Translations under genes and position numbers: made by a program | From: Cellulomonas sp. JH27-2 | GTDB taxonomy: Bacteria > Actinomycetota > Actinomycetes > Actinomycetales > Cellulomonadaceae | Assembly: GCF_014837175.1 (NCBI RefSeq) | Contig: NZ_JACYFR010000003.1 | Span: 558,001 to 622,000, forward strand | Direction of reading: 5' to 3' | DNA length: 64,000 nucleotides | Shown here: in pieces, positions 38,944 through 50,479 of the stretch | Position numbering within the stretch: position 1 is the first letter of the stretch | Layout of the letters: each line of letters starts with the position of its first letter | The notes under the pieces: generated by a model | The model's input: only the letters and a program-made list of their open reading frames with translations | The model's database searches: none | Told to the model about the DNA's origin: nothing

Positions 38944-39522
38944 TCAGAGGACCTGCGCGACCGCCGGGACCATGTCCTTGATCGTGCGTCCGTTGGTCTT
39001 GACGCCCAGGGCAGTCATGGCCCAGCCGCTGCCGGACCGGGACACCTTCGCCATGATCTGCGCGGTGTGGGGCCCGGAGCCCGACAGGTCGTAGCGCGCG
39101 ATCTCCTGCTCGTTGCTCGAGTCGATCAGGCGGCAGAACGCGTTCTCGATCTGGCTGAACGACTCGCCCGAGTAGCTGTTCACGACGAACACGAGCTGCG
39201 TCACCGCCGGGTTCACGGCGCCGAGGTCCACGACGATCGACTCGTCGTCGCCGTCCCCGCGGCCCGTCAGGTTGTCGCCCAGGTGCTGCAGCGCGCCGTC
39301 TTTGCTGCGCAGCTGGCTGAACCACACCTGGTCCACGAGCTTGCCCGACGCGTCGAACAGCAGGCACGAGGCGTCGAGGTCGACGGCCTTCTCCTTGCTC
39401 CGACCGAAGAGGCCCTTGACCTTCATCGCGTCCCAGCCCAGGCCCATGCGGACCCGCGTGAGGCCGCCCCCGTCGGACTTGGCCAGTGAGACGGTCTGGC
39501 CCTTCTGCAGGCTGATCGACAT
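38944..39522 (-). CDS. TerD family protein (TerZ/TerF-like)
   Basis: A 192-residue calcium-binding stress protein. ISLQKGQTVSLAK starts the domain, GLGWDAMKVKG follows, and the Ca2+ ligands are expected in VDLDASCLLFD and GRGDGDDESIVVDL. SFSQIENAFCRLIDSSNEQEIARYD matches the family, but the C-terminal part (SGSGWAMTALGVKTNGRTIK) differs from the other TerD copies here and looks TerZ-like. ATG 39522 with AAGGAGCAGC upstream. Last gene of the minus arm of the Ter island. Confidence 0.9.
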   Translation of the reverse strand: MSISLQKGQTVSLAKSDGGGLTRVRMGLGWDAMKVKGLFGRSKEKAVDLDASCLLFDASGKLVDQVWFSQLRSKDGALQHLGDNLTGRGDGDDESIVVDLGAVNPAVTQLVFVVNSYSGESFSQIENAFCRLIDSSNEQEIARYDLSGSGPHTAQIMAKVSRSGSGWAMTALGVKTNGRTIKDMVPAVAQVL

Positions 39523-39603
39523 GGGTGCTGCTCCTTCGTCGTCGGAGGTGGTGCTGTGCGGGTGCTGCTGTGCGGCGTGGCGGCGCTCGGACGAGCGCCG
39601 GCA

Positions 39604-40707
39604 TCAGGCGCCGACGTGGACCACGTGCTCCTCGTCGGCGTGCCGCTTGTTGCGCATGATGGACGTGATGAACGCGGCGCCGATGAACGCGACGCCGACC
39701 AGGCCGGTGACGACCTCGTTGACGTGCACACCGATGCTGACCAGCAGGATCACGGCCAGCGCGCCGATCGCCCAGTGCGCGCCGTGCTCCAGGTAGATGT
39801 ACTCGGACAGCGTGCCCTTGCGGACCAGGAACACGGTGATCGAGCGGACGAACATGGCGCCGATGAAGCCGAGGCCCAGCGCGATGATGATGGGGTCGGC
39901 GGTGATCGCGAACGCGCCCACGACGCCGTCGAACGAGAACGACGCGTCGAGGACCTCGAGGTAGAGGAACAGGAAGAACGCCGCCTTGCCGGTCGCCTTC
40001 GCCACCTCGGTGGGGCCGCTGCGGGCCGCGCCCGACACCCCCTCCTCCGACTCCTCGTCCTCGCCACCGGCCGCGTTCTCGAACAGCGACCCGAGCCCGT
40101 TGACCGCGATGTACGTGACCATGCCGAGCACGCCCGCGACCATCACGGTCGCGGCGTCGTCGGCCAGCAGCTCGGCCGTCAGCACCAGCGCGATGCCGGA
40201 GATGACGACCGCGAGCTGGTCGAGCTTGCCGATCTTGGCCAGCGGCTTCTCCAACCACGTGAGCCACGTGATCTCGCGGTCCTCGAAGACGAAGTCGAGG
40301 AACAGCATCAGCAGGAACATGCCACCGAACGCCGCGATCTGCGGGTGCGCCTGGTTGAGCAGGTAGCCGTAGGTGCCGGGGGTCTCCGGGTCGCCCTTCT
40401 CCATCGCGAGCCGGAGGGCTTCGATCGGGCCCAGGTCAGCGGTGATCCCGACGATGAGCAGCGGGAAGATCAGCCGCATGCCGAAGACGGCGATGATGAC
40501 GCCGACCGTCAGGAACATGCGCTGCCAGAAGTCGCTCATGCGCTGCAGCACGGTCGCGTTGATGACCGCGTTGTCGAACGAGAGCGAGACCTCGAGCACG
40601 CCGAGGATCAGGCACAGCGCGAGCGCGTTCCAGCCGCCATAGAAGTAGGCGACCACGAGCGAGGCGAACGTGACGCCGATGGACCAGCCGAAGATTCGAA
40701 GAAGCAA
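39604..40707 (-). CDS. TerC-superfamily DUF475 membrane protein
   Basis: A 367-residue integral membrane protein with about nine membrane segments, the TerC-like partner of TerD proteins. LEVSLSFDNAVINATVLQRM and LEVLDASFSFDGVVGAFAIT are the paired Asp-containing motifs of the TerC superfamily, likely metal-binding within the membrane. A short Glu/Ser-rich cytoplasmic loop lies mid-protein (GGEDEESEEG). It starts at TTG 40707 with GGAACGAG upstream. Members are linked to Mn2+ or other metal handling, though the substrate here is unknown. Confidence 0.88.
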   Translation of the reverse strand: MLLRIFGWSIGVTFASLVVAYFYGGWNALALCLILGVLEVSLSFDNAVINATVLQRMSDFWQRMFLTVGVIIAVFGMRLIFPLLIVGITADLGPIEALRLAMEKGDPETPGTYGYLLNQAHPQIAAFGGMFLLMLFLDFVFEDREITWLTWLEKPLAKIGKLDQLAVVISGIALVLTAELLADDAATVMVAGVLGMVTYIAVNGLGSLFENAAGGEDEESEEGVSGAARSGPTEVAKATGKAAFFLFLYLEVLDASFSFDGVVGAFAITADPIIIALGLGFIGAMFVRSITVFLVRKGTLSEYIYLEHGAHWAIGALAVILLVSIGVHVNEVVTGLVGVAFIGAAFITSIMRNKRHADEEHVVHVGA

Positions 40708-40826
40708 CGCAGTCTCGTTCCGCGGGTTCAGGGAGCGGGACGCCGGGCGGCGACTCCGGACGGGAGTCTAGAGGGAGCGCCGCCAGCGCCGGGGGCGCGG
40801 TCCACAGCTGTGGGCCGCCGGCCGGG

Positions 40827-41405
40827 TCAGCCGACATTGACCCCGAAGTCGCGGACGATGCCGAGCAGCCCGGAGACGTAGCCCTGGCCGACGGCGCGGA
40901 ACTTCCACTCGCCGTTGTACCGGTAGACCTCGCCGAAGATCATGGCCGTCTCCGTGGAGGCGTCCTCGGTGAGGTCGTAGCGGGCGATCTCCTGGCCGTC
41001 GTCGGAGTTGACGATGCGGATGAACGCGTTGCGGACCTGCCCGAACGACTGGTGGCGCGCCTCGGCGTCGTGGATCGAGACCGGGAAGACGATCTTGTCC
41101 ACGTCGGGGGACATCTGCGCCAGGTCCAGCAGCAGCGACTCGTCGTCGCCCTCGCCCTCACCGGTCCGGTTGTCGCCGGTGTGCTCGACGGTCCCGTCGG
41201 GGCTCTTGAGGTTGTTGTAGAAGACGAAGTGCGCGTCGGACAGGACCTTGCCGCTGGGGCCGAGCAGCAGCGCGCTCGCGTCCAGGTCGAAGTCCAGACC
41301 GCTCGTCGTGCGGGCGTCCCAGCCCAGGCCCACCAGAGCCTTGGTGAGGTTAGGGGCCTCCTTGCTCAGCGAGACGTTGCCGCCCTTGGCCAGCGTGATG
41401 CTCAC
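40827..41405 (-). CDS. terD: TerD family calcium-binding protein
   Basis: A 192-residue canonical Ter[25 protein letters not shown] starts the domain; the Ca2+-binding residues are in [11 protein letters not shown] and [28 protein letters not shown] and [19 protein letters not shown] complete the pattern. Paralogue of the next gene upstream, to which it is linked by only 28 bp. GTG 41405 has GGAAGGACAC upstream. Role: stress protein associated with tellurite, oxidative and phage/colicin tolerance in other bacteria; the exact action is unresolved. Confidence 0.93.
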
Positions 41406-41433
41406 GTGCGTGTCCTTCCGGTCCCGTGCGCGA

Positions 41434-42009
41434 TCAGAGGTTCACGCCGAAGTCGCGGGCGATGCCCGCGAGGCCCGACGCGTAGCCCTGACCGACGGCC
41501 CGGAACTTCCACTCGGCGCCGTTGCGGTACAGCTCGCCGAACACCATCGCGGTCTCGGTCGACGCGTCCTCGGACAGGTCGTAGCGCGCGATCTCAGCGC
41601 CACCGGCCGCGTTGACGACGCGGATGAAGGCGTTGCGCACCTGGCCGAAGTTCTGCCCGCGAGAGTCGGCGTCGTAGATGGAGACCGGGAAGACGATCTT
41701 CTGCACCTCGGCCGGCACAGCGGAGAGGTCCACCTTGACCTGCTCGTCGTCGCCCTCACCCTCGCCGGTCAGGTTGTCGCCCAGGTGCTCGACGGAGCCC
41801 TCGGGGCTCTTGAGGTTGTTGAAGAACACGAAGTGCGCGTCCGAGGGCACCTTGCCGGCCGCGTCGAGCAGGATCGCGGACGCGTCGAGGTCGAAGTCCG
41901 CGCCCGTCGTCGTGCGGACGTCCCAGCCCAGGCCGACGACGACACCGGTCAGACCGGGCGCCTCCTTGGTGAGGCTGACGTTTCCACCCTTGCTGAGGCT
42001 GACGGCCAT
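41434..42009 (-). CDS. terD: TerD family calcium-binding protein
   Basis: A 191-residue canonical TerD, first gene of the minus arm and close paralogue of the one downstream. [49 protein letters not shown] and [14 protein letters not shown] are all present, so the Ca2+ sites look intact. ATG 42009 has AGGAGGACCC upstream. It is divergent from telA across a 273-bp region that should hold both promoters (minus-strand TACGGT around 42095 and plus-strand TAGCAT around 42195 are -10 candidates). Confidence 0.94.
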
Positions 42010-42282: not shown

Positions 42283-43509
42283 ATGTCCGAGCTCGACCTC
42301 GGTGCCACCCCGACCGCCCCGTCGACCCCGGCGGCCCCCGCGACCTCGGGGGCGCTCGTGCTGACCCCGCCCGCGCCCGTGGTGGTCGTGGAGGACCAGC
42401 AGGCCGTCGACGCCGTCCCGGTGGACGCCGGCAAGGACGCGGAGCTCAAGGCGAAGGCCGCGGCGTTCGTCACCGAGCTCGCCTCGCTGGACAGCAAGTC
42501 GCCCGCGTTCAGCCAGAAGATCGCGTCGATCACGTCGATGGGCGACCAGGACATCCGCGCGTCCGCGTCGGTCTCCAGCCGCATGCTCGACCGGCCCGCC
42601 AGCCTGGCCAAGGGGGGCAAGGGCAAGGAGGGCGACGCGCAGACGCGCGTCGCGAACACGCTCGTCGACCTGCGCACCACCGTCACGGACCTCGACCCGA
42701 ACCGGGCGGACCTGACGGGCGTCAAGAAGGTCCTCAAGTGGATCCCGGGCGGCAACAAGATCGACGCCTACTTCGCGCGCTACCAGTCCGCGCAGTCGCA
42801 CATCGACGCCATCATCAAGGCGCTCGCCTCCGGCCAGGACGAGCTGCGCAAGGACAACGCCGCGATCGAGACGGAGAAGACCAACCTCTGGACGTCGATG
42901 GGCAAGCTGGCCGAGTACAACTCGCTGGCCGGTGCGCTCGACGAGGCGCTCGTCGGGAAGGTGGCCGAGCTCGAGGCCGCAGGACGTCAGGACGACGCGG
43001 ACGCGCTGCGCTCGGACGCGCTGTTCCCCGTGCGGCAGCGCCGCCAGGACTTCATGACGCAGATGGCCGTGAGCGTGCAGGGCTACATGGCGCTCGACCT
43101 GGTGCGACGCAACAACCTCGAGCTCATCAAGGGCGTCGACCGCGCGCAGACGACGACCATCTCCGCGCTGCGCACCGCCGTCATCGTCAGCCAGGCGCTC
43201 TCGCGGCAGAAGCTGGTGCTCGACCAGATCACGGCCCTGAACACCGTCACGTCCAACCTCATCGAATCGACGTCCGTGCAGCTGCGGCAGCAGGGTGCGG
43301 CCATCAACCAGCAGGCGTCGGAGTCGACGATCGACGTCGAGAAGCTGCAGGCCGCGTTCGACAACGTGTTCGCGACGATGGACGCGCTCGACACGTTCCG
43401 CGCGCAGGCCACCGAGAGCATGGGGGCCACGGTCACCGCGCTCGAGGGGCAGATCCAGCGCGCGCAGCCGTACCTGGAGCGGACGCGTGCGCGCGAGGGC
43501 AGCGAGTGA
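42283..43509 (+). CDS. telA: Toxic anion resistance protein TelA
   Basis: A 408-residue cytoplasmic, mostly helical protein of the TelA/KlaA family. After an Ala/Pro-rich N-terminus (MSELDLGATP...) it shows LKWIPGGNKIDAYFARYQSAQ, VRQRRQDFMTQMAVSVQGYMALD and LVLDQITALNTVTSNLIEST, all family landmarks with coiled-coil character. Members travel with TerD/TerC genes and are implicated in resistance to tellurite and membrane-active agents; the mechanism is unknown. ATG 42283 with GGAGG upstream. First gene of the plus arm. Its N-terminal ELDL matches the LDL motif seen in neighbours. Confidence 0.92.
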   Translation: MSELDLGATPTAPSTPAAPATSGALVLTPPAPVVVVEDQQAVDAVPVDAGKDAELKAKAAAFVTELASLDSKSPAFSQKIASITSMGDQDIRASASVSSRMLDRPASLAKGGKGKEGDAQTRVANTLVDLRTTVTDLDPNRADLTGVKKVLKWIPGGNKIDAYFARYQSAQSHIDAIIKALASGQDELRKDNAAIETEKTNLWTSMGKLAEYNSLAGALDEALVGKVAELEAAGRQDDADALRSDALFPVRQRRQDFMTQMAVSVQGYMALDLVRRNNLELIKGVDRAQTTTISALRTAVIVSQALSRQKLVLDQITALNTVTSNLIESTSVQLRQQGAAINQQASESTIDVEKLQAAFDNVFATMDALDTFRAQATESMGATVTALEGQIQRAQPYLERTRAREGSE

Positions 43510-43578: not shown

Positions 43579-44067
43579 GTGAGCTGGTTGGCGCGCCTGC
43601 GCGGCGACGAGGACCCCGTCCCGACCGCACCCGAGCCGGACGACGACGCCCCGGAGGCCCTGCAGGCCGCGATCGACGAGCTGGTCCGGTTCGTCAACGC
43701 GCGAGCCGGCCGCCTTCCCCCGGCCGCGCTGGTCAACGCGCGGCGGCTGACGGACACGCTGACAGAGGTGGTCGACAGCTCGCAGGTCCGCCCGCTCGAC
43801 GTCTACGCGGTCATCAACGTGCGCAGCGTGGTCGGTGACTACCTGCCGACGACGCTGGGCACCTACCTGGCGCTCGAGCCCGACGTGCGCGACGTCCCGC
43901 GGGGCGGCGGCCAGACGCCCACGCAGTCGCTCATGGCGCAGATCGACTCGCTGCAGACGTCGGTCTCCGCCACCCTGGTGGCCACACGTGAGCAGGACGC
44001 GGACGCGCTGCTCACGCAGGGCCGCTTCCTGGCGACCAAGTTCGACCGATCCGACCTCGACCTGTGA
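43579..44067 (+). CDS. Small helical Ter-island protein of unknown function
   Basis: A 162-residue protein I do not recognise beyond its association with telA. The start SWLARLRGDEDPVP is followed by an acidic segment, then helices with VNARAGRLPPAALVNARRLTD and VINVRSVVGDYLPTTLGTYLAL. No membrane segment or signal is present. It ends in DRSDLDL. GTG 43579 with GGGGAAGGG upstream; 69 bp after telA. Probably a TelA partner in the same transcript. Its stop lies within an 18-bp tandem duplication, giving a second in-frame stop downstream. Confidence 0.7.
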   Translation: MSWLARLRGDEDPVPTAPEPDDDAPEALQAAIDELVRFVNARAGRLPPAALVNARRLTDTLTEVVDSSQVRPLDVYAVINVRSVVGDYLPTTLGTYLALEPDVRDVPRGGGQTPTQSLMAQIDSLQTSVSATLVATREQDADALLTQGRFLATKFDRSDLDL

Positions 44068-44083
44068 TCCGACCTCGACCTGT
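44048..44083 (+). repeat. 18-bp tandem duplication across a stop codon
   Basis: GATCCGACCTCGACCTGT occurs twice in a row (44048-44065 and 44066-44083). The first copy encodes the C-terminal SDLDL, and the stop begins in its last base. The second copy keeps frame and repeats the stop. Confidence 0.9.
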
Positions 44084-44096
44084 GACGGAAGCCTGA

Positions 44097-44663
44097 ATGC
44101 CCGCAGCACCCATGAAGCGCGGTTCCAACGCCGCCCTCACCCGCGAGATCCCGAACCTGCACGGGGTCGTCCTCGGGGTCGCGCTCGTCTCGTCCGAGCC
44201 GGTGCTCAACGACAACCTCGTGGTCGCCACGCTGCTGTGCGACGACGACCACCGGGTGCTGTCCGACGAGCACATGGTCTTCTTCAACCAGCTCAGCGAA
44301 CCCACGATGTCGGTCGCGCAGGTGGCCCAGGCAGCCGGGGGCGACCTGGAGCAGATCGAGGTCGACCTCGACGACGTGCCCGCCGCCGTGCATCGCATCG
44401 TCGTCGTCGCCTACCTGAACGAGGGGATGGGCCACCGCCGCACGTTCGGGCAGCTGCGCACCGCGCGCATCCGCGTGCTGAACCTCGACGGGGGCGCCGA
44501 GCTGGTGTCCTCGGAGAACCTCGCCCCGGCGCTCAGCCAGGAGACCGGCCTGATCCTCGGCGAGCTGTACCGGCACGAGGGCGGCTGGAAGTTCAAGGTC
44601 GTCGGGCAGGGGTACCCCGACGGGATCACCGGCATCGCGGCCGACCACGGCATCGGGTTGTGA
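44097..44663 (+). CDS. Divergent TerD-like protein with altered calcium site
   Basis: A 188-residue TerD-fold protein. MKRGSNAALTREIPNLHGVVLGV and RRTFGQLRTARIRVLN match the family, and ETGLILGELYRHEGGWKFKVVGQG is the typical C-terminal motif. The GLGWD and DLDAS segments are replaced and the GDDE ligand run reads GGDLEQIEVDLDD, so Ca2+ binding may be weakened or changed. ATG 44097. The stop overlaps the next gene (TGATG), indicating coupled translation. Confidence 0.85.
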   Translation: MPAAPMKRGSNAALTREIPNLHGVVLGVALVSSEPVLNDNLVVATLLCDDDHRVLSDEHMVFFNQLSEPTMSVAQVAQAAGGDLEQIEVDLDDVPAAVHRIVVVAYLNEGMGHRRTFGQLRTARIRVLNLDGGAELVSSENLAPALSQETGLILGELYRHEGGWKFKVVGQGYPDGITGIAADHGIGL

Positions 44664-45811
44664 TGGTCCTCGACCCCGCCCGCGCGCCGCGACGCTCCGA
44701 CCTGCCGTGGTTGCGTCGGCGGCCGTTGCCGCGGCCGACGACCCCGACGAGCCCGACGAGCACGACGAGCACGACGAGCGCTGCTGCGGGCGCGACGACC
44801 GGGGGCCCTGCGCGGGCGCACTCGATCGACCTGCGGCATCCCGGCCGCCCAGCGCCCGGTTCCAGCGCCCGACCCGCCGGGGTCCAGCCCGTCGCGGCCC
44901 GACCGTCAGCCGAGCCGCCGCCGCCGGGGCCGGCGCAGCGCCCGCCCGCGGCGACGTCGCTCGACCTCTCGTCGTCCTCGTCCACATCGCTGGACCTGTC
45001 TGGATCGACGACAACGGGTGGCGGTTCGGACTCGACGTCGCTCGACCTGTCGTCTTCGGGGTCGACGTCGCTGGACCTGTCGTCGGGTTCGACGTCCCTG
45101 GACCTGTCGCCCGGCGGCGGGTCCGCCGGTGGCTCGTCGGGCGCGGCTCCCGGGACCCCGCAGCCGCGGGCCGCGCGGCGCCGACGCGCGGCGGCGGACG
45201 GGGACGCGGTGCTCGGGTACGAGCCGGAGCGTGTCGTCGTCGGGCGCCCGACGCTGCTGTCGCGCGAGAACCCCACGGTCGCGCTCACGCGCGTGCAGTC
45301 CGGGGTCGGTGTCCTGCGCATCACGGCACGCGTGTCGCGGACGATCGGCGACCTGCGGCTCGCGGCGTTCTGCGCGCTGACGACACCGGACACGTCGGCC
45401 GACCCGACGGCCGTCGACGTGACGCTGCTGGACCACAACCGCGGCATGACGGTTGCGCCCACAGGCTCCCGGCGGCCCGTGGTGCAGGCGCTCGACCAGG
45501 GATTCCTGGTGGACCTGCGCCAGGTGACGAGGGTGCGGCGGCTGGTCGTGCTGGCGTTCTCACCGACCGCGTCCGCGCTGGCGTGGAGCGGTGCCCTGCG
45601 CGTGGAGACGATCGGGGGTGCGCGGGTCGACGTGCCGCTCGAGCACGAGCAGGGTGCGGGGTCGCTGGTCGCGCTGAGCGTGGTCGACGTCGCGGGGGAG
45701 CTGGTGCTGCGGGCCGAGCGCGATCTGGTGCCGGGCGCGCTGCGCGAGGCCGGAGCCGCCTACGGGTTCGACACCCTGACCTGGGTCGACAAGTGGACGC
45801 CCCTGACCTGA
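44663..45811 (+). CDS. Degenerate TerD-like protein with five TSLDLS repeats
   Basis: A 382-residue protein. Residues 1-~185 are low-complexity Pro/Ser/Thr/Gly and probably disordered, with five TSLDLS motifs encoded at about 44952-45109. Residues ~190-382 form a distant TerD-like beta-rich domain (NPTVALTRVQSGVGVLRITARV; LVDLRQVTRVRRLVVLAFS; AAYGFDTLTWVDKW), lacking the usual DLDAS and GDDE ligands. ATG 44663 shares a base with the upstream stop. Possibly a scaffold that uses the repeated motif to recruit partners. I know no named family for the whole protein. Confidence 0.7.
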   Translation: MVLDPARAPRRSDLPWLRRRPLPRPTTPTSPTSTTSTTSAAAGATTGGPARAHSIDLRHPGRPAPGSSARPAGVQPVAARPSAEPPPPGPAQRPPAATSLDLSSSSSTSLDLSGSTTTGGGSDSTSLDLSSSGSTSLDLSSGSTSLDLSPGGGSAGGSSGAAPGTPQPRAARRRRAAADGDAVLGYEPERVVVGRPTLLSRENPTVALTRVQSGVGVLRITARVSRTIGDLRLAAFCALTTPDTSADPTAVDVTLLDHNRGMTVAPTGSRRPVVQALDQGFLVDLRQVTRVRRLVVLAFSPTASALAWSGALRVETIGGARVDVPLEHEQGAGSLVALSVVDVAGELVLRAERDLVPGALREAGAAYGFDTLTWVDKWTPLT

Positions 45812-45876: not shown

Positions 45877-46623
45877 ATGGGCATCGACTACACGAAGCGA
45901 CCGAAGAGTGCCCCCGACGCGCCACTGAACGCGTCGTCGGCCACCCAGCCCGTGCCGCAGCCGTCACCGCAGGCCGCACCGCAGCCGCCGGAGCCGCGCG
46001 TCACGCTCGGCAAGGTCACCCTGACGAAGGCCGCGCCGACCGTGTCGCTCTCCAAGGCCGACGCGGCGTCCGGGGTGTTGCGCGTCAACCTCAACTGGAC
46101 GGCGCGGCCGCCGGCGTCGGGCGGCTTCTGGAAGTCCTTGGCCGGTGCGCCTGCCATCGACCTCGACCTCGCGTGCCTGTACGAGTACACGGACGGCTCG
46201 AAGGGCGTGGTGCAGGCGCTCGGCAACGCGTTCCGCGACGAGCACACGTTCGGTCCGGAGCCGATCTGCTGGCTGGACGGCGACGACCGCACGGGGACCC
46301 GGACGGGCGGGGAGAACCTGTTCGTCGACCTGCGCCACATCCAGGCGGTGCGGCGCATCCTCGTGTTCGCGTTCATCTACGAGGGCGTGCCGAACTGGGC
46401 CGCGGCCGACGCCGTGGTGACGCTGTTCCCCCGCTCCGGACCGCAGATCGAGGTGCGGCTCGACGAGTCCGACCCGCAGTCGCCGTCGTGCGCGATCGCC
46501 CTGCTGGAGAACGTGGGCGGGGAGCTGTCCGTGCGGCGCGAGGTGCGGTACGTGCGCGGTGGCCAGTCGGCGGTCGATGCCGCGTACGGCTGGGGGATGC
46601 AGTGGGCGAGGGGTTGCAAGTAG
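45877..46623 (+). CDS. TerD-like protein with repeated VxLxK N-terminal motif
   Basis: A 248-residue TerD-fold protein. A Pro/Ala/Gln-rich start (to ~residue 45) leads into VTLGKVTLTKAAPTVSLSK, three copies of the V-T/S-L-x-K strand that normally occurs once or twice in TerD. IDLDLACLYEYTDGSKG, CWLDGDDRTGT and ENLFVDLRHIQAVRRILVFAF follow, so acidic ligands are partly kept. It ends in an AAYGWGMQW motif shared with the preceding gene. ATG 45877 with AAGGAGCCGAG upstream. Last of the TerD-like run in the plus arm. Confidence 0.82.
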   Translation: MGIDYTKRPKSAPDAPLNASSATQPVPQPSPQAAPQPPEPRVTLGKVTLTKAAPTVSLSKADAASGVLRVNLNWTARPPASGGFWKSLAGAPAIDLDLACLYEYTDGSKGVVQALGNAFRDEHTFGPEPICWLDGDDRTGTRTGGENLFVDLRHIQAVRRILVFAFIYEGVPNWAAADAVVTLFPRSGPQIEVRLDESDPQSPSCAIALLENVGGELSVRREVRYVRGGQSAVDAAYGWGMQWARGCK

Positions 46624-46721: not shown

Positions 46722-47876
46722 ATGCGCCATTTCGACCACCTGCCCGACGACGTGCGTCGTCGGCTGTTCTGGCGCGAGCCGGAGCCCTTCACGCGGGAGT
46801 CGGGTCGCGACGTCCTGGCGGTCGCGCTCGGTGCCACGCTCTACATGCCGGGCACCCGCCCACGGCTCGCGCACGACCTGACGCGCCGCGCCGCGAAGGG
46901 TGCCATGAGCTCGGTGGTGTGCCTCGAGGACTCGATCGCCGACGAGGACGTGCCGGCGGCGCAGGCGAACACGATCGCGCAGCTGCGCGACCTGGCGGAG
47001 TCCGGGGGCGGGCCGCTCGTGTTCGTCCGCGTCCGCCAACCGGAGCAGATCGGGCAGATCATCGAGGGCCTGGGTGAGCACGCCGGCGTGCTGAGCGGGT
47101 TCGTGCTGCCCAAGTTCACGCAGACGTCGGGCGCCGCGTTCCTGGACGCGCTCGACGACACGGCCGCGTCCTCCGGTCACCACCTGTGGGCCATGCCCGT
47201 CATGGAGGCGCCGGAGATCATCCACCGCGAGACGCGGGACGACGAGCTGGTCGCGGTCCGTCAGCTCCTCGACAAGCACCGCTCGTCGGTCCTCGCGGTG
47301 CGCACGGGCGCCACGGACCTGTGCGGGTTCTACGGCATCCGGCGTGGCCGCGACCTGAGCATCTACGACGTGCGCCTGGTCGCGGACGTGATCAACCATG
47401 TCGTGAACATCCTGGGCCGAGCCGACGGGACGGGCTTCGTGGTGACCGGGCCCGTCTGGGAGTACTACGGCGGCAACGAGCGCCTGTTCAAGCCGCGCCT
47501 TCGGGAGGCGCCGTTCGAGGCGCACGACGCGGAGGACCTGCGCCACACGCTCATCACCAAGGACCTCGACGGGCTGATCCGCGAGGTCGTGCTGGACACG
47601 GCCAACGGTCTGACCGGCAAGACCGTCATCCACCCCAGCCACGTGGGCGTCGTGCACGCGCTGTCGGTGGTGACGCACGAGGAGTTCGTCGACGCGAGCG
47701 ACGTGCTCGGCACGGATGCCGGCGGGGCGGCCGCGTCGTCCTACCGGAACAAGATGAACGAGTCGCGCCCGCACCGCGCCTGGGCCGAGCGCATCCTGAC
47801 GCGGGCCAAGGTGTTCGGGGTCGCGGAGGCCGACGTCGGCTTCGTCGACCTGCTCGCCGCGGGGGACGGCTGGTGA
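46722..47876 (+). CDS. HpcH/HpaI (citrate lyase beta-like) aldolase of the Ter biosynthetic module
   Basis: A 384-residue TIM-barrel C-C bond lyase/aldolase using a divalent metal and CoA- or pyruvate-type substrates. SSVVCLEDSIADEDV, PLVFVRVRQPEQI, LWAMPVMEAPEIIHRE and GKTVIHPSHVGVVHAL give the barrel and metal-binding Glu/Asp. In Ter operons this family is proposed to help make a nucleoside-like metabolite together with the PRTase, StiP and HAD proteins. ATG 46722 with GAGGACGCC upstream; TTACGCT about 50 nt ahead may be a -10, so the enzyme genes can be expressed apart from the TerD genes. Its stop overlaps the next start (GTGA). Confidence 0.85.
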   Translation: MRHFDHLPDDVRRRLFWREPEPFTRESGRDVLAVALGATLYMPGTRPRLAHDLTRRAAKGAMSSVVCLEDSIADEDVPAAQANTIAQLRDLAESGGGPLVFVRVRQPEQIGQIIEGLGEHAGVLSGFVLPKFTQTSGAAFLDALDDTAASSGHHLWAMPVMEAPEIIHRETRDDELVAVRQLLDKHRSSVLAVRTGATDLCGFYGIRRGRDLSIYDVRLVADVINHVVNILGRADGTGFVVTGPVWEYYGGNERLFKPRLREAPFEAHDAEDLRHTLITKDLDGLIREVVLDTANGLTGKTVIHPSHVGVVHALSVVTHEEFVDASDVLGTDAGGAAASSYRNKMNESRPHRAWAERILTRAKVFGVAEADVGFVDLLAAGDGW

Positions 47877-50479
47877 CGGCGTCCGCGCAGGACCACGCGA
47901 CGTGGGTGGAGGCTGCGCTCGGGGTCGCCCTGCGCACGACGAGCTCCCCGGTGGGGCTCGAGCTGACGGACCTCGTCGGCCTCGCGGTTCGCCGCAACCC
48001 CCGCCGGGCGCACCTGCTGGTGTCCCGTGTGCTCGCCAAGCACGTTCCGACCGATCCGCGGGTGGTGCGGGCGTCCGGGCGTCTGCTCGGCGACCTCGTG
48101 CGCGCACGGCTGACCGGGCAGGCCTTGGTCCACGGTCCCGCGCGGGGCCTCGCGCTGCGGGCCGCGCTCGCCGGCGACGAGGACGCGGCGGCGACGCTCG
48201 TCGGGGGTGCGCCCGACGCCCGTCCGAGCGGGGAGGCCCTCGCTGCGACGGTGCTCGGGTACGCCGAGACGGCGACGGCGCTGGGGGAGCAGGTCGCGGA
48301 CGCCCTGGGGGCGCCGTACCTGCACTCGACGCGCCGCAGCGTGCGCGGGATCGAGCCCGTGGGCGGGTTCGAGGAGGAGCACTCGCACGCGACCAGCCAC
48401 CTGCTGCTGCCCGCCGACCCGGTGATGCTCACCGGGTCCGAGGCCCTGGTGCTGGTCGACGACGAGCTCAGCACCGGCCGCACCGCGCTCAACACCATCG
48501 AGGTCCTGCACGCCACGTCGCCGCGCGCGGTCTACGTGATCGCCGCGCTCGTGGACCTGCGCTCCGCCGCCGACCGCCGCGTCATGGCTGACGTCGCCGC
48601 ACGGCTGGGCGCGTCGATCGACGTCGTCGCGCTCGCGGCAGGTGACGTGGTCCTGCCGGACGCTCTCACCGAGCGGGCTTCCGCGCTGGTGGCGCAGCTC
48701 GAGGACGCCCAGCCCGGCACGCGAGACGCGGCGAGCGGTGAGGTCGTCCGGGTGCCCGTGCCCTGGCCCGCTGACGTCCCGGAGTCAGCGCGGCACGGAC
48801 GCAGCCAGGCCGACGGACGGCGGCTCGCGGACGCCGTGGCGCTCGCGGCGGACGCGGTTGCCGACGCGCTCGGGCGTGAGCGGGCGGAGCGGGTCCTGGT
48901 GCTCGGGACCGAGGAGCTCCTCGACGTCCCGCAGCGCATCGCGTCGGCCCTCTGCGGCCTGCTGGAGACCGCCGTCGTGCGGTTCTCGTCGACCACGCGG
49001 TCCCCGGTCCTGGCGGTCGACGAGGACGGCTACGCCATCCGCTCCGCCCTGCGCTTCCCGGCGCCGGAGGGGTCCGACGGACAGCGGTTCGCCTACAACG
49101 TGGCGGGCGGCGGCTTCGACGCCGTCGTCGTGGTCCTGGACGAACCGGCGGCGGGACCCGCCGCCGACGGCCTGATCCAGGCGCTGGCGCGCGTCGCGCC
49201 AAAGGTCGTCATCGCCACGCTGCCCGACGCGGCCGCCCGCGTCGCACGCGGCCGCTCCACGCCGCCGGCCCTGCACGGGCCAGCCTTCGGCTCGTACGCG
49301 GCCGACGAGGTGTCGTGGCTGCTCACGGACCTGTCGGACGTGCAGCTCGAAGCGCCCGTGGAGGAGCGGGAGGAGGCGATCCAGGCGGGCGGCGCGCACT
49401 ACGCGGAGTCGTTGCCGGTCGAGTACCAGCCCTCGGCGGCGTACGCGGCGCTGTTCGAGGAGGCGCTGGCGGACGCCGCGCAGCGGGTCGCGCTCGCGGT
49501 CGGTGTCGTCACGGAACGTGCGCTCGCGGCTCGGCCCGACGGGCTCACGCTCGTCTCGCTGGCCCGGGCGGGCACGCCGATCGGCATCCTCATGCGCCGG
49601 TGGGCGCAGCACGTGCACGGCGTGGACCTGCCGCACTACGCGGTGTCGATCGTGCGCGGGCGCGGCATCGACCCGGTCGCGCTGCGGTACGTGACCGCGC
49701 ACCACCACCCCGGCTCAGTGCTGTTCGTCGACGGGTGGACGGGCAAGGGAGCGATCGCGCGGGAGCTGTCGGCGGCGCTGGAGGAGTTCCGCGCGCAGAC
49801 GGGCGTCGAGATCCCCGCGGACCTCGCGGTCCTCGCCGACCCCGGGCACTGCGTGCGGCTGTACGGCACGCGCGACGACTTCCTCATCCCGTCCGCCTGC
49901 CTCAACTCGACGGTCTCGGGCCTCGTCTCGCGCACGGTCCTCAACCGCGACCTGCTGACCCCGCAGCAGTTCCACGGCGCCAAGTTCTACGCCGACCTGG
50001 CGTCCGCCGACGTGTCGGGCCGGTTCCTCGACGCCGTCGCGGCCCGGTTCGACGACGTGCGAGCGGCCGTGGCGGCGACACCCGCGGCGCCCGACGAGAC
50101 GCCGGACTGGCGCGGGTGGCGCGCGGTCGAGCGGGTCTCGGCCGAGCAGGGCATCGGCGACGTCAACCTGGTCAAGCCCGGCGTCGGGGAGACCACGCGC
50201 GTGCTGCTGCGCCGGGTGCCCTGGAAGATCCTGGTGCGGGCGCAGGCCGACCCGCGCGACCTGGTGCACATCCGGCACCTGGCCGCGGAGCGCGGCGTGC
50301 CGGTCGAGGCCGTGCCGGACCTGCCGTACAGCTGCATCGGCCTGATCCACCCCGCGTACACGGCGGGGGCGACGGGCGCGTCGGGCACGTCCGCCGCCCG
50401 ACGGGCGGACACCGCCGACGCACCGACGCCGCCGACGGACATGCTGGAGCGTGATCTGCGCCGGCGCGATCTCGTGTGA
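47873..50479 (+). CDS. Fused phosphoribosyltransferase-TRSP and StiP (PRTase-like/cysteine protease) protein
   Basis: An 868-residue fusion. Residues ~20-260 are a PRTase_2 domain with the PRPP loop LVLVDDELSTGRT near residue 200, preceded by ATSHLLLPADP. Residues ~275-465 fit the TRSP domain that follows PRTase_2 in Ter operons. Residues ~465-830 resemble StiP (HYAVSIVRGRGIDPVALRYV; FVDGWTGKGAIARELSAALE; DPGHCVRLYG; IPSACLNSTVSGLVSRTVLN). As I recall the family, these are separate genes in many Ter operons. The fusion suggests the two PRTase-like units work on one substrate. GTG 47873 overlaps the lyase stop by 4 nt. Whether the StiP part is protease, transferase or both is not settled by sequence. 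Confidence 0.82.
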   Translation: MTASAQDHATWVEAALGVALRTTSSPVGLELTDLVGLAVRRNPRRAHLLVSRVLAKHVPTDPRVVRASGRLLGDLVRARLTGQALVHGPARGLALRAALAGDEDAAATLVGGAPDARPSGEALAATVLGYAETATALGEQVADALGAPYLHSTRRSVRGIEPVGGFEEEHSHATSHLLLPADPVMLTGSEALVLVDDELSTGRTALNTIEVLHATSPRAVYVIAALVDLRSAADRRVMADVAARLGASIDVVALAAGDVVLPDALTERASALVAQLEDAQPGTRDAASGEVVRVPVPWPADVPESARHGRSQADGRRLADAVALAADAVADALGRERAERVLVLGTEELLDVPQRIASALCGLLETAVVRFSSTTRSPVLAVDEDGYAIRSALRFPAPEGSDGQRFAYNVAGGGFDAVVVVLDEPAAGPAADGLIQALARVAPKVVIATLPDAAARVARGRSTPPALHGPAFGSYAADEVSWLLTDLSDVQLEAPVEEREEAIQAGGAHYAESLPVEYQPSAAYAALFEEALADAAQRVALAVGVVTERALAARPDGLTLVSLARAGTPIGILMRRWAQHVHGVDLPHYAVSIVRGRGIDPVALRYVTAHHHPGSVLFVDGWTGKGAIARELSAALEEFRAQTGVEIPADLAVLADPGHCVRLYGTRDDFLIPSACLNSTVSGLVSRTVLNRDLLTPQQFHGAKFYADLASADVSGRFLDAVAARFDDVRAAVAATPAAPDETPDWRGWRAVERVSAEQGIGDVNLVKPGVGETTRVLLRRVPWKILVRAQADPRDLVHIRHLAAERGVPVEAVPDLPYSCIGLIHPAYTAGATGASGTSAARRADTADAPTPPTDMLERDLRRRDLV

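Follow-up and report, generated by a model that had tools for sequence, protein, structure and literature searches.

A short motif with the core L-D-L recurs on flexible ends and linkers of three neighbouring proteins in the window (the whole 64,000-nucleotide stretch of Cellulomonas sp. JH27-2 DNA that was analysed), and the best explanation as a whole, to which we assign a probability of about 0.6, is that it acts as a docking motif for a TelA-centred assembly, joining these flexible segments to a common partner. The repeated form, TSLDLS, is very probably a functional short linear docking motif, judging from sequence comparison. The motif lies in flexible regions, as indicated by low pLDDT for TelA residues 1–23 and for the tail of the small TelA-partner protein, and by composition, not by folding, for the linker of the repeat protein (rep); its core is conserved above its surroundings and above the expectation from composition.

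On the plus strand, telA is followed by the gene for the small protein, a terD gene, rep, a gene for a second TerD-like protein (TerD-like 2) and the Ter metabolite genes, and a divergent terD/terC block lies upstream of telA (Table 1). The co-location of TerC, TerD, TelA and metabolite genes identifies the locus as a Ter system. The ATG of rep overlaps the stop codon of the terD gene just before it. Searches of NCBIfam gave nothing useful for the locus proteins, and PADLOC returned weak coiled-coil matches for TelA (E 5e-4 and 4e-3) and none for the other four. The small protein matched no described family in Pfam, NCBIfam or the solved structures; fold searches with TelA and with the small protein gave no match at E 0.001 or better, and neither had a sequence relative in the PDB. 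Rep had no Pfam family up to E 1, the TerD cut-off included, and no NCBIfam match. The initial annotation had called rep TerD-like, in agreement with a profile match of its C-terminal domain to the TerD-like 2 family (probability 99.8); that family in turn matched TerD (95.1), whereas direct comparison of rep with canonical TerD was weak (probability 16.4, E 0.0016). Because the link runs via TerD-like 2 and the direct match is weak, the domain is TerD-like by profile comparison and not TerD by Pfam's test.

Table 1 Features of the locus, with positions counted from the first nucleotide of the window
Feature	Position	Strand	Remark
Divergent terD-terC(DUF475)-terD-terD block	38944..42009	-	Upstream of telA
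TelA, 408 aa	42283..43509	+	PF05816, E 2.8e-89
MSELDLG, TelA N-terminal motif	42283..42303	+	Region pLDDT below 50
LVLTPPAPV, conserved second LxL element of TelA	42355..42381	+	Adjoins folded domain
Small TelA-partner protein, 162 aa	43579..44067	+	Predicted five-helix bundle and flexible tail
RSDLDL, C-terminal motif of small protein	44047..44064	+	Stop codon 44065-44067
TerD-family protein	44097..44663	+	PF02342, E 2.8e-45
Repeat protein (rep), 382 aa	44663..45811	+	Linker and TerD-like domain
RSDLPWLRRR, N-terminal in rep	44693..44722	+	Second conserved short motif of rep orthologues
SIDL, sixth, weaker motif-like site in rep	44822..44833	+	
TSLDLS copy 1	44954..44971	+	Residue 98 of rep
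TSLDLS copy 2	44984..45001	+	Residue 108 of rep
TSLDLS copy 3	45035..45052	+	Residue 125 of rep
TSLDLS copy 4	45065..45082	+	Residue 135 of rep
TSLDLS copy 5	45092..45109	+	Residue 144 of rep
TerD-like C-terminal domain of rep	45194..45808	+	hhalign against TerD-like 2 family, E 2e-28
Divergent TerD-like protein 2	45877..46623	+	Pfam TerD E 0.081 (below family cut-off); hhalign to TerD 95.1
Ter metabolite genes: C-C_Bond_Lyase; PRTase_2-TRSP-StiP-PELOTA_1 fusion	46722..50479	+	

Five TSLDLS motifs were observed in the window's rep linker, compared with a mean of 0.04 after shuffling. The initial annotation had listed the same five copies, which are in frame from 44954 to 45109; only its start at 44952 fell out of frame. 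Codon differences between the copies are synonymous only, and three of the five lie in a 27-bp tandem repeat (83% matches), pointing to local duplication as part of the origin of the array. A DNA pattern for SLDLS matched seven times in the 3.73-Mb genome, five of them in rep, and the reversed control gave none. Counts in 21 other genomes of the genus ranged from 0 to 6, and the two highest, G007 (6) and G030 (5), both belong to genomes with a rep orthologue; the count in G020 was 0, although a rep orthologue with a single SLDLT is present.

Analysis of rep orthologues revealed that the core motif is kept while the linkers around it diverge. Orthologues of the rep domain were found in 3 of 57 other relatives (E < 1e-50), and single-sequence profile matches among all fetched loci provided 33 rep ORFs. 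The strict motif pattern occurred in 28 of these 33 linkers and any LDL in 31, with 1–8 copies per linker, compared with a shuffled expectation of 0.01–0.16 motifs per linker; in L039, L040 and L041 an LDL is present but was missed by the strict pattern or the domain boundary, and the exceptions are L044, which has LSL, and L042, whose short linker has no motif. The 118 LxL instances in 31 distinct linkers gave the consensus [S/T]-S-L-D-L-[S/G]-x-P, with Asp at the central position in 117 (counted among L[D/N/T/H]L matches). Across 29 linkers (2962 residues), LDL accounts for 198 of 253 Leu and 99 of 168 Asp, and other hydrophobic residues are scarce (Trp 1, Met 0, Ile 13). Pairwise alignments retained 68% of LDL residues versus 41% of other linker residues, a difference to which aligners contribute by favouring such matches. 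Rep orthologues also carry a second short N-terminal motif, RxDL[P/T/G/V][W/F/Y][L/M], of an RxDLPWLRxR-like form. Frankia-like loci encode a fusion of TerD with a second TerD-like domain, with SPLDLSG or SALDLGG copies between the two domains.

Similar cores had been annotated at the start of TelA (MSELDLG at 42283) and at the end of the small protein (RSDLDL before the stop codon), and both are present as described. Among Ter-type loci, the TelA N-terminus reads M-S-x-LDL-[G/S] in 25 of 26 from the class census and in 33 of 36 from a named-organism set, where one of the three misses (L049) has LDLS beyond the reach of the pattern; truncated TelA matches and those with <25 residues upstream were dropped. 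The two sets overlap in loci, and their counts are not additive. The TelA profile was built from 37 of 38 prepared sequences (L047 left out). The predicted TelA model was of middling confidence overall (pLDDT 71), with residues 1–23 flexible. An LVLTPPAPV-like element precedes the folded domain in nearly all TelA proteins examined, and confidence rises there (block mean 58, then 79); that it occupies the same groove as the motif is a guess.

The small protein was found in 59 of 394 genomes by a class-wide search with a profile of 43 of 48 sequences (L021, L047, one L050 copy, L054 and L057 left out), and the tail of its predicted model is flexible (block means 65 and 51). All 74 matches other than the window's own were fetched and three without a recognisable tail were set aside. 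[LIM][DNTQ]L was present in 46 of the remaining 71 tails, compared with a mean of 2.9 and a maximum of 10 in 1000 shuffles, and Thr, Asn or Gln replaces Asp in 14 of the 46. The misses include 15 Frankia-like proteins ending in RSDLD, or in RSDLD followed by S, A, T or G, in which the last Leu is missing; others have LEI (three), LEL (two) or ISL (one), and several have lost the tail. Tail conservation in the named-organism set, which was found partly with the pattern KFxRSDLDL, is non-independent and was not used. An exact 18-bp tandem duplication (44048-44085) ends the small gene in the window and places a second SDLDL-stop directly after the first. Kineococcus contains tandem small paralogues, both ending in DLDL or ELDL; in three loci (L045, L051, L053) the gene after the first starts with GVDLG or SIDLR and a further neighbour with TLDLQL or TLDVQL, and these neighbours are possible extra motif carriers.

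Clustering of called genes separated three types of TelA/small locus. Type A has TerD/TerC genes (Ter-type); type B consists of a membrane or lipoprotein, TelA, an SBP-vWA protein and the small protein; and type C contains TelA, the small protein, an AAA ATPase, a membrane protein, an SBP_bac_3 lipoprotein, another protein and a PknG-type kinase with PknG rubredoxin and TPR domains. The class census (n = 74) comprised 27 type A, 32 type B and 10 type C loci, with 5 unassigned, and TelA and the small protein are the usual genes common to all three types, although a small protein without an adjoining TelA was found in some type B loci (L130, L135, L150-L152, L154-L159). Type C TelA lacked the N-terminal motif in all ten loci and had a C-terminal one in all ten (TLDIG, SLDLSS and similar); the N-terminal motif was likewise absent from type B TelA (0/17), and the type B small tail usually carries the motif. 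In G020, TelA is lost from the Ter locus, where one SLDL remains in rep, and a second, type C-like TelA elsewhere ends in SPLDIG. The motif thus moves between termini with its core kept and behaves like a linear motif, not a fold element.

Two type B small proteins (L176, L175) have N-terminal hydrophobic stretches resembling membrane helices, unlike the small protein in the window. TelA and the small protein lie beside a PknG-type kinase, an SBP_bac_3 lipoprotein and an AAA ATPase in L119, L126, L132, L133, L136 and L138-L141; glnX-glnH-pknG is a similar, glutamate-sensing operon. In an open-access library we found no paper on the TelA family with PknG, or on the LDL motif by name. Neither TelA nor the small protein of a Curtobacterium plasmid has a terminal motif, and among four non-actinobacterial TelA loci examined, the two with a small-like gene, both proteobacterial (Sphaerotilus and Variovorax), lack the tail motif; on this little sampling, the motif looks like an actinobacterial feature.

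The initial annotation had proposed that three neighbouring proteins share an LDL-type motif that docks a common partner and could hold a Ter complex together. The motif is indeed shared, and since for all three proteins it recurs in orthologues and exceeds the expectation from composition, a docking-type short linear motif is well supported. A Ter complex proved too narrow a scope, because the motif is kept in loci without a TerD gene nearby and in genomes without a Pfam TerD; we would rather assign it to TelA-small-protein assemblies, among which the Ter cluster is one variant. The relevant comparison covered 31 genomes, a chosen subset of the 59 with the small protein (mainly type B or C, plus G020): 18 contained no Pfam TerD, and 14 of these (G267, G141, G348, G417, G308, G204, G109, G356, G324, G187, G263, G100, G391 and G102) kept the small-tail motif. 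The motif was also found on small and TelA tails in loci without a nearby TerD gene.

The partner itself is tentatively placed in the folded helical domain of TelA, a reading that we hold at somewhat less than even chances; TelA is favoured because it and the small protein are the genes that the loci usually have in common and because conservation is high in the TelA body (100 columns at 93% or more in 97 sequences) and not in the small-protein body (10 such columns in 118 sequences). According to this model, the L-D-L core, preceded by Ser, Thr or Pro and followed by Ser or Gly, would plug flexible ends and linkers into the common partner; the TelA tail, the small tail and the rep copies would bind grooves on TelA subunits, and rep, as a multivalent linker, would cross-link several subunits and bring its TerD-like domain to them. 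Two loci that have lost the small-tail motif (L137, L161) have a TelA changed at columns that are invariant or nearly invariant in the 97 other sequences, Y163, F164, Q171 and A358 (numbering = alignment + 70), of which Y, F and Q belong to YFxxYQSAQ. These residues are a possible groove, a suggestion drawn from the two loci.

Other receptors are less probable. The helical bundle of the small protein could bind the TelA tail and the rep repeats, with the small tail self-associating, and the small protein occurs in every census locus, including type B loci without an adjoining TelA, though this holds by construction. We consider this unlikely, since the type B small tail is usually the sole terminal motif and would have to bind its own copy, and the body shows the poor conservation noted above. 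The motif might instead be read by a product of a gene outside the locus, for example a protease adaptor or a protein of replication or division, given that terminal motifs can serve as degradation or recruitment tags and that no receptor is proved; the strong restriction of the motif to TelA-linked proteins, the several internal copies in rep, unusual for a terminal degradation tag, and an F after LxL in only 1 of 118 instances, against a sliding-clamp motif, make this distinctly unlikely. An improbable receptor is the TerD beta-sandwich, to which the motif would add an extra strand like the TerD VSLSK/VSLTK strands: the LxL alternation fits a strand, the locus is surrounded by TerD genes and a comparable V-S-L pattern is seen at TerD N-termini, but the 14 of 18 genomes that keep the small-tail motif without a Pfam TerD argue against canonical TerD as sole receptor, with the proviso that TerD-like proteins as divergent as rep escape Pfam.

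Readings without docking fare worse. Neutral tandem duplication in a low-complexity linker, with coincidental matches in the neighbours, would account for the 27-bp repeat and for the 18-bp duplication that ends the small gene; it is highly improbable in view of the conservation across genera and the synonymous-only changes between copies, and the 68% versus 41% retention, favoured as it is by aligners, points the same way. Direct metal binding by the repeats fits the near-invariant Asp in rep and is hardly credible, because each motif has one Asp with hydrophobic neighbours and the small tails often replace it. We also rejected a metal-dependent vWA receptor reading the Asp, as type C tails have Thr or Asn in its place and no vWA gene occurs in Ter-type loci among the families named, and an FHA phospho-Thr site, as no more than 38 of 118 instances have Thr at -2.

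A wider extension of the docking reading is speculative and, on balance, doubtful: an LDL plug code might organise a TelA-small-protein scaffold that is general in Actinobacteria and is connected to one sensor or another (TerD/TerC, solute-binding-vWA proteins or the PknG-type kinase locus), and in the Ter version rep, with up to eight plugs, might cross-link TelA so that a network or condensate forms on the membrane side, the response being set by its valency.

The locus has the same gene content as Ter-dependent stress response systems (TerC/DUF475, TerD, TelA, C-C_Bond_Lyase and PRTase_2-TRSP-StiP-PELOTA). According to a review, TelA forms sub-membrane structures and TerD senses ligands (PMC7824862); these passages mention no linear motif. 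The joint action of TelA and TerD proteins has long been poorly understood, and a motif that marks the members of the assembly and can be abolished by changing two residues opens it to direct testing. Through the motif, Ter clusters are also connected to two further TelA locus types, one of them adjoining a PknG-type kinase. No listed motif class is known to us that combines this core with such a range of families. The sliding-clamp motif QLxLF, which needs an aromatic residue after LxL, likewise places an LxL core on flexible tails; it was rejected, as the aromatic is missing in 117 of 118 rep instances and no replication proteins are encoded here. Short linear docking motifs also occur on disordered multivalent scaffolds, which the LDL motif resembles in its short conserved core, variable spacers, repeated copies and switching between termini.
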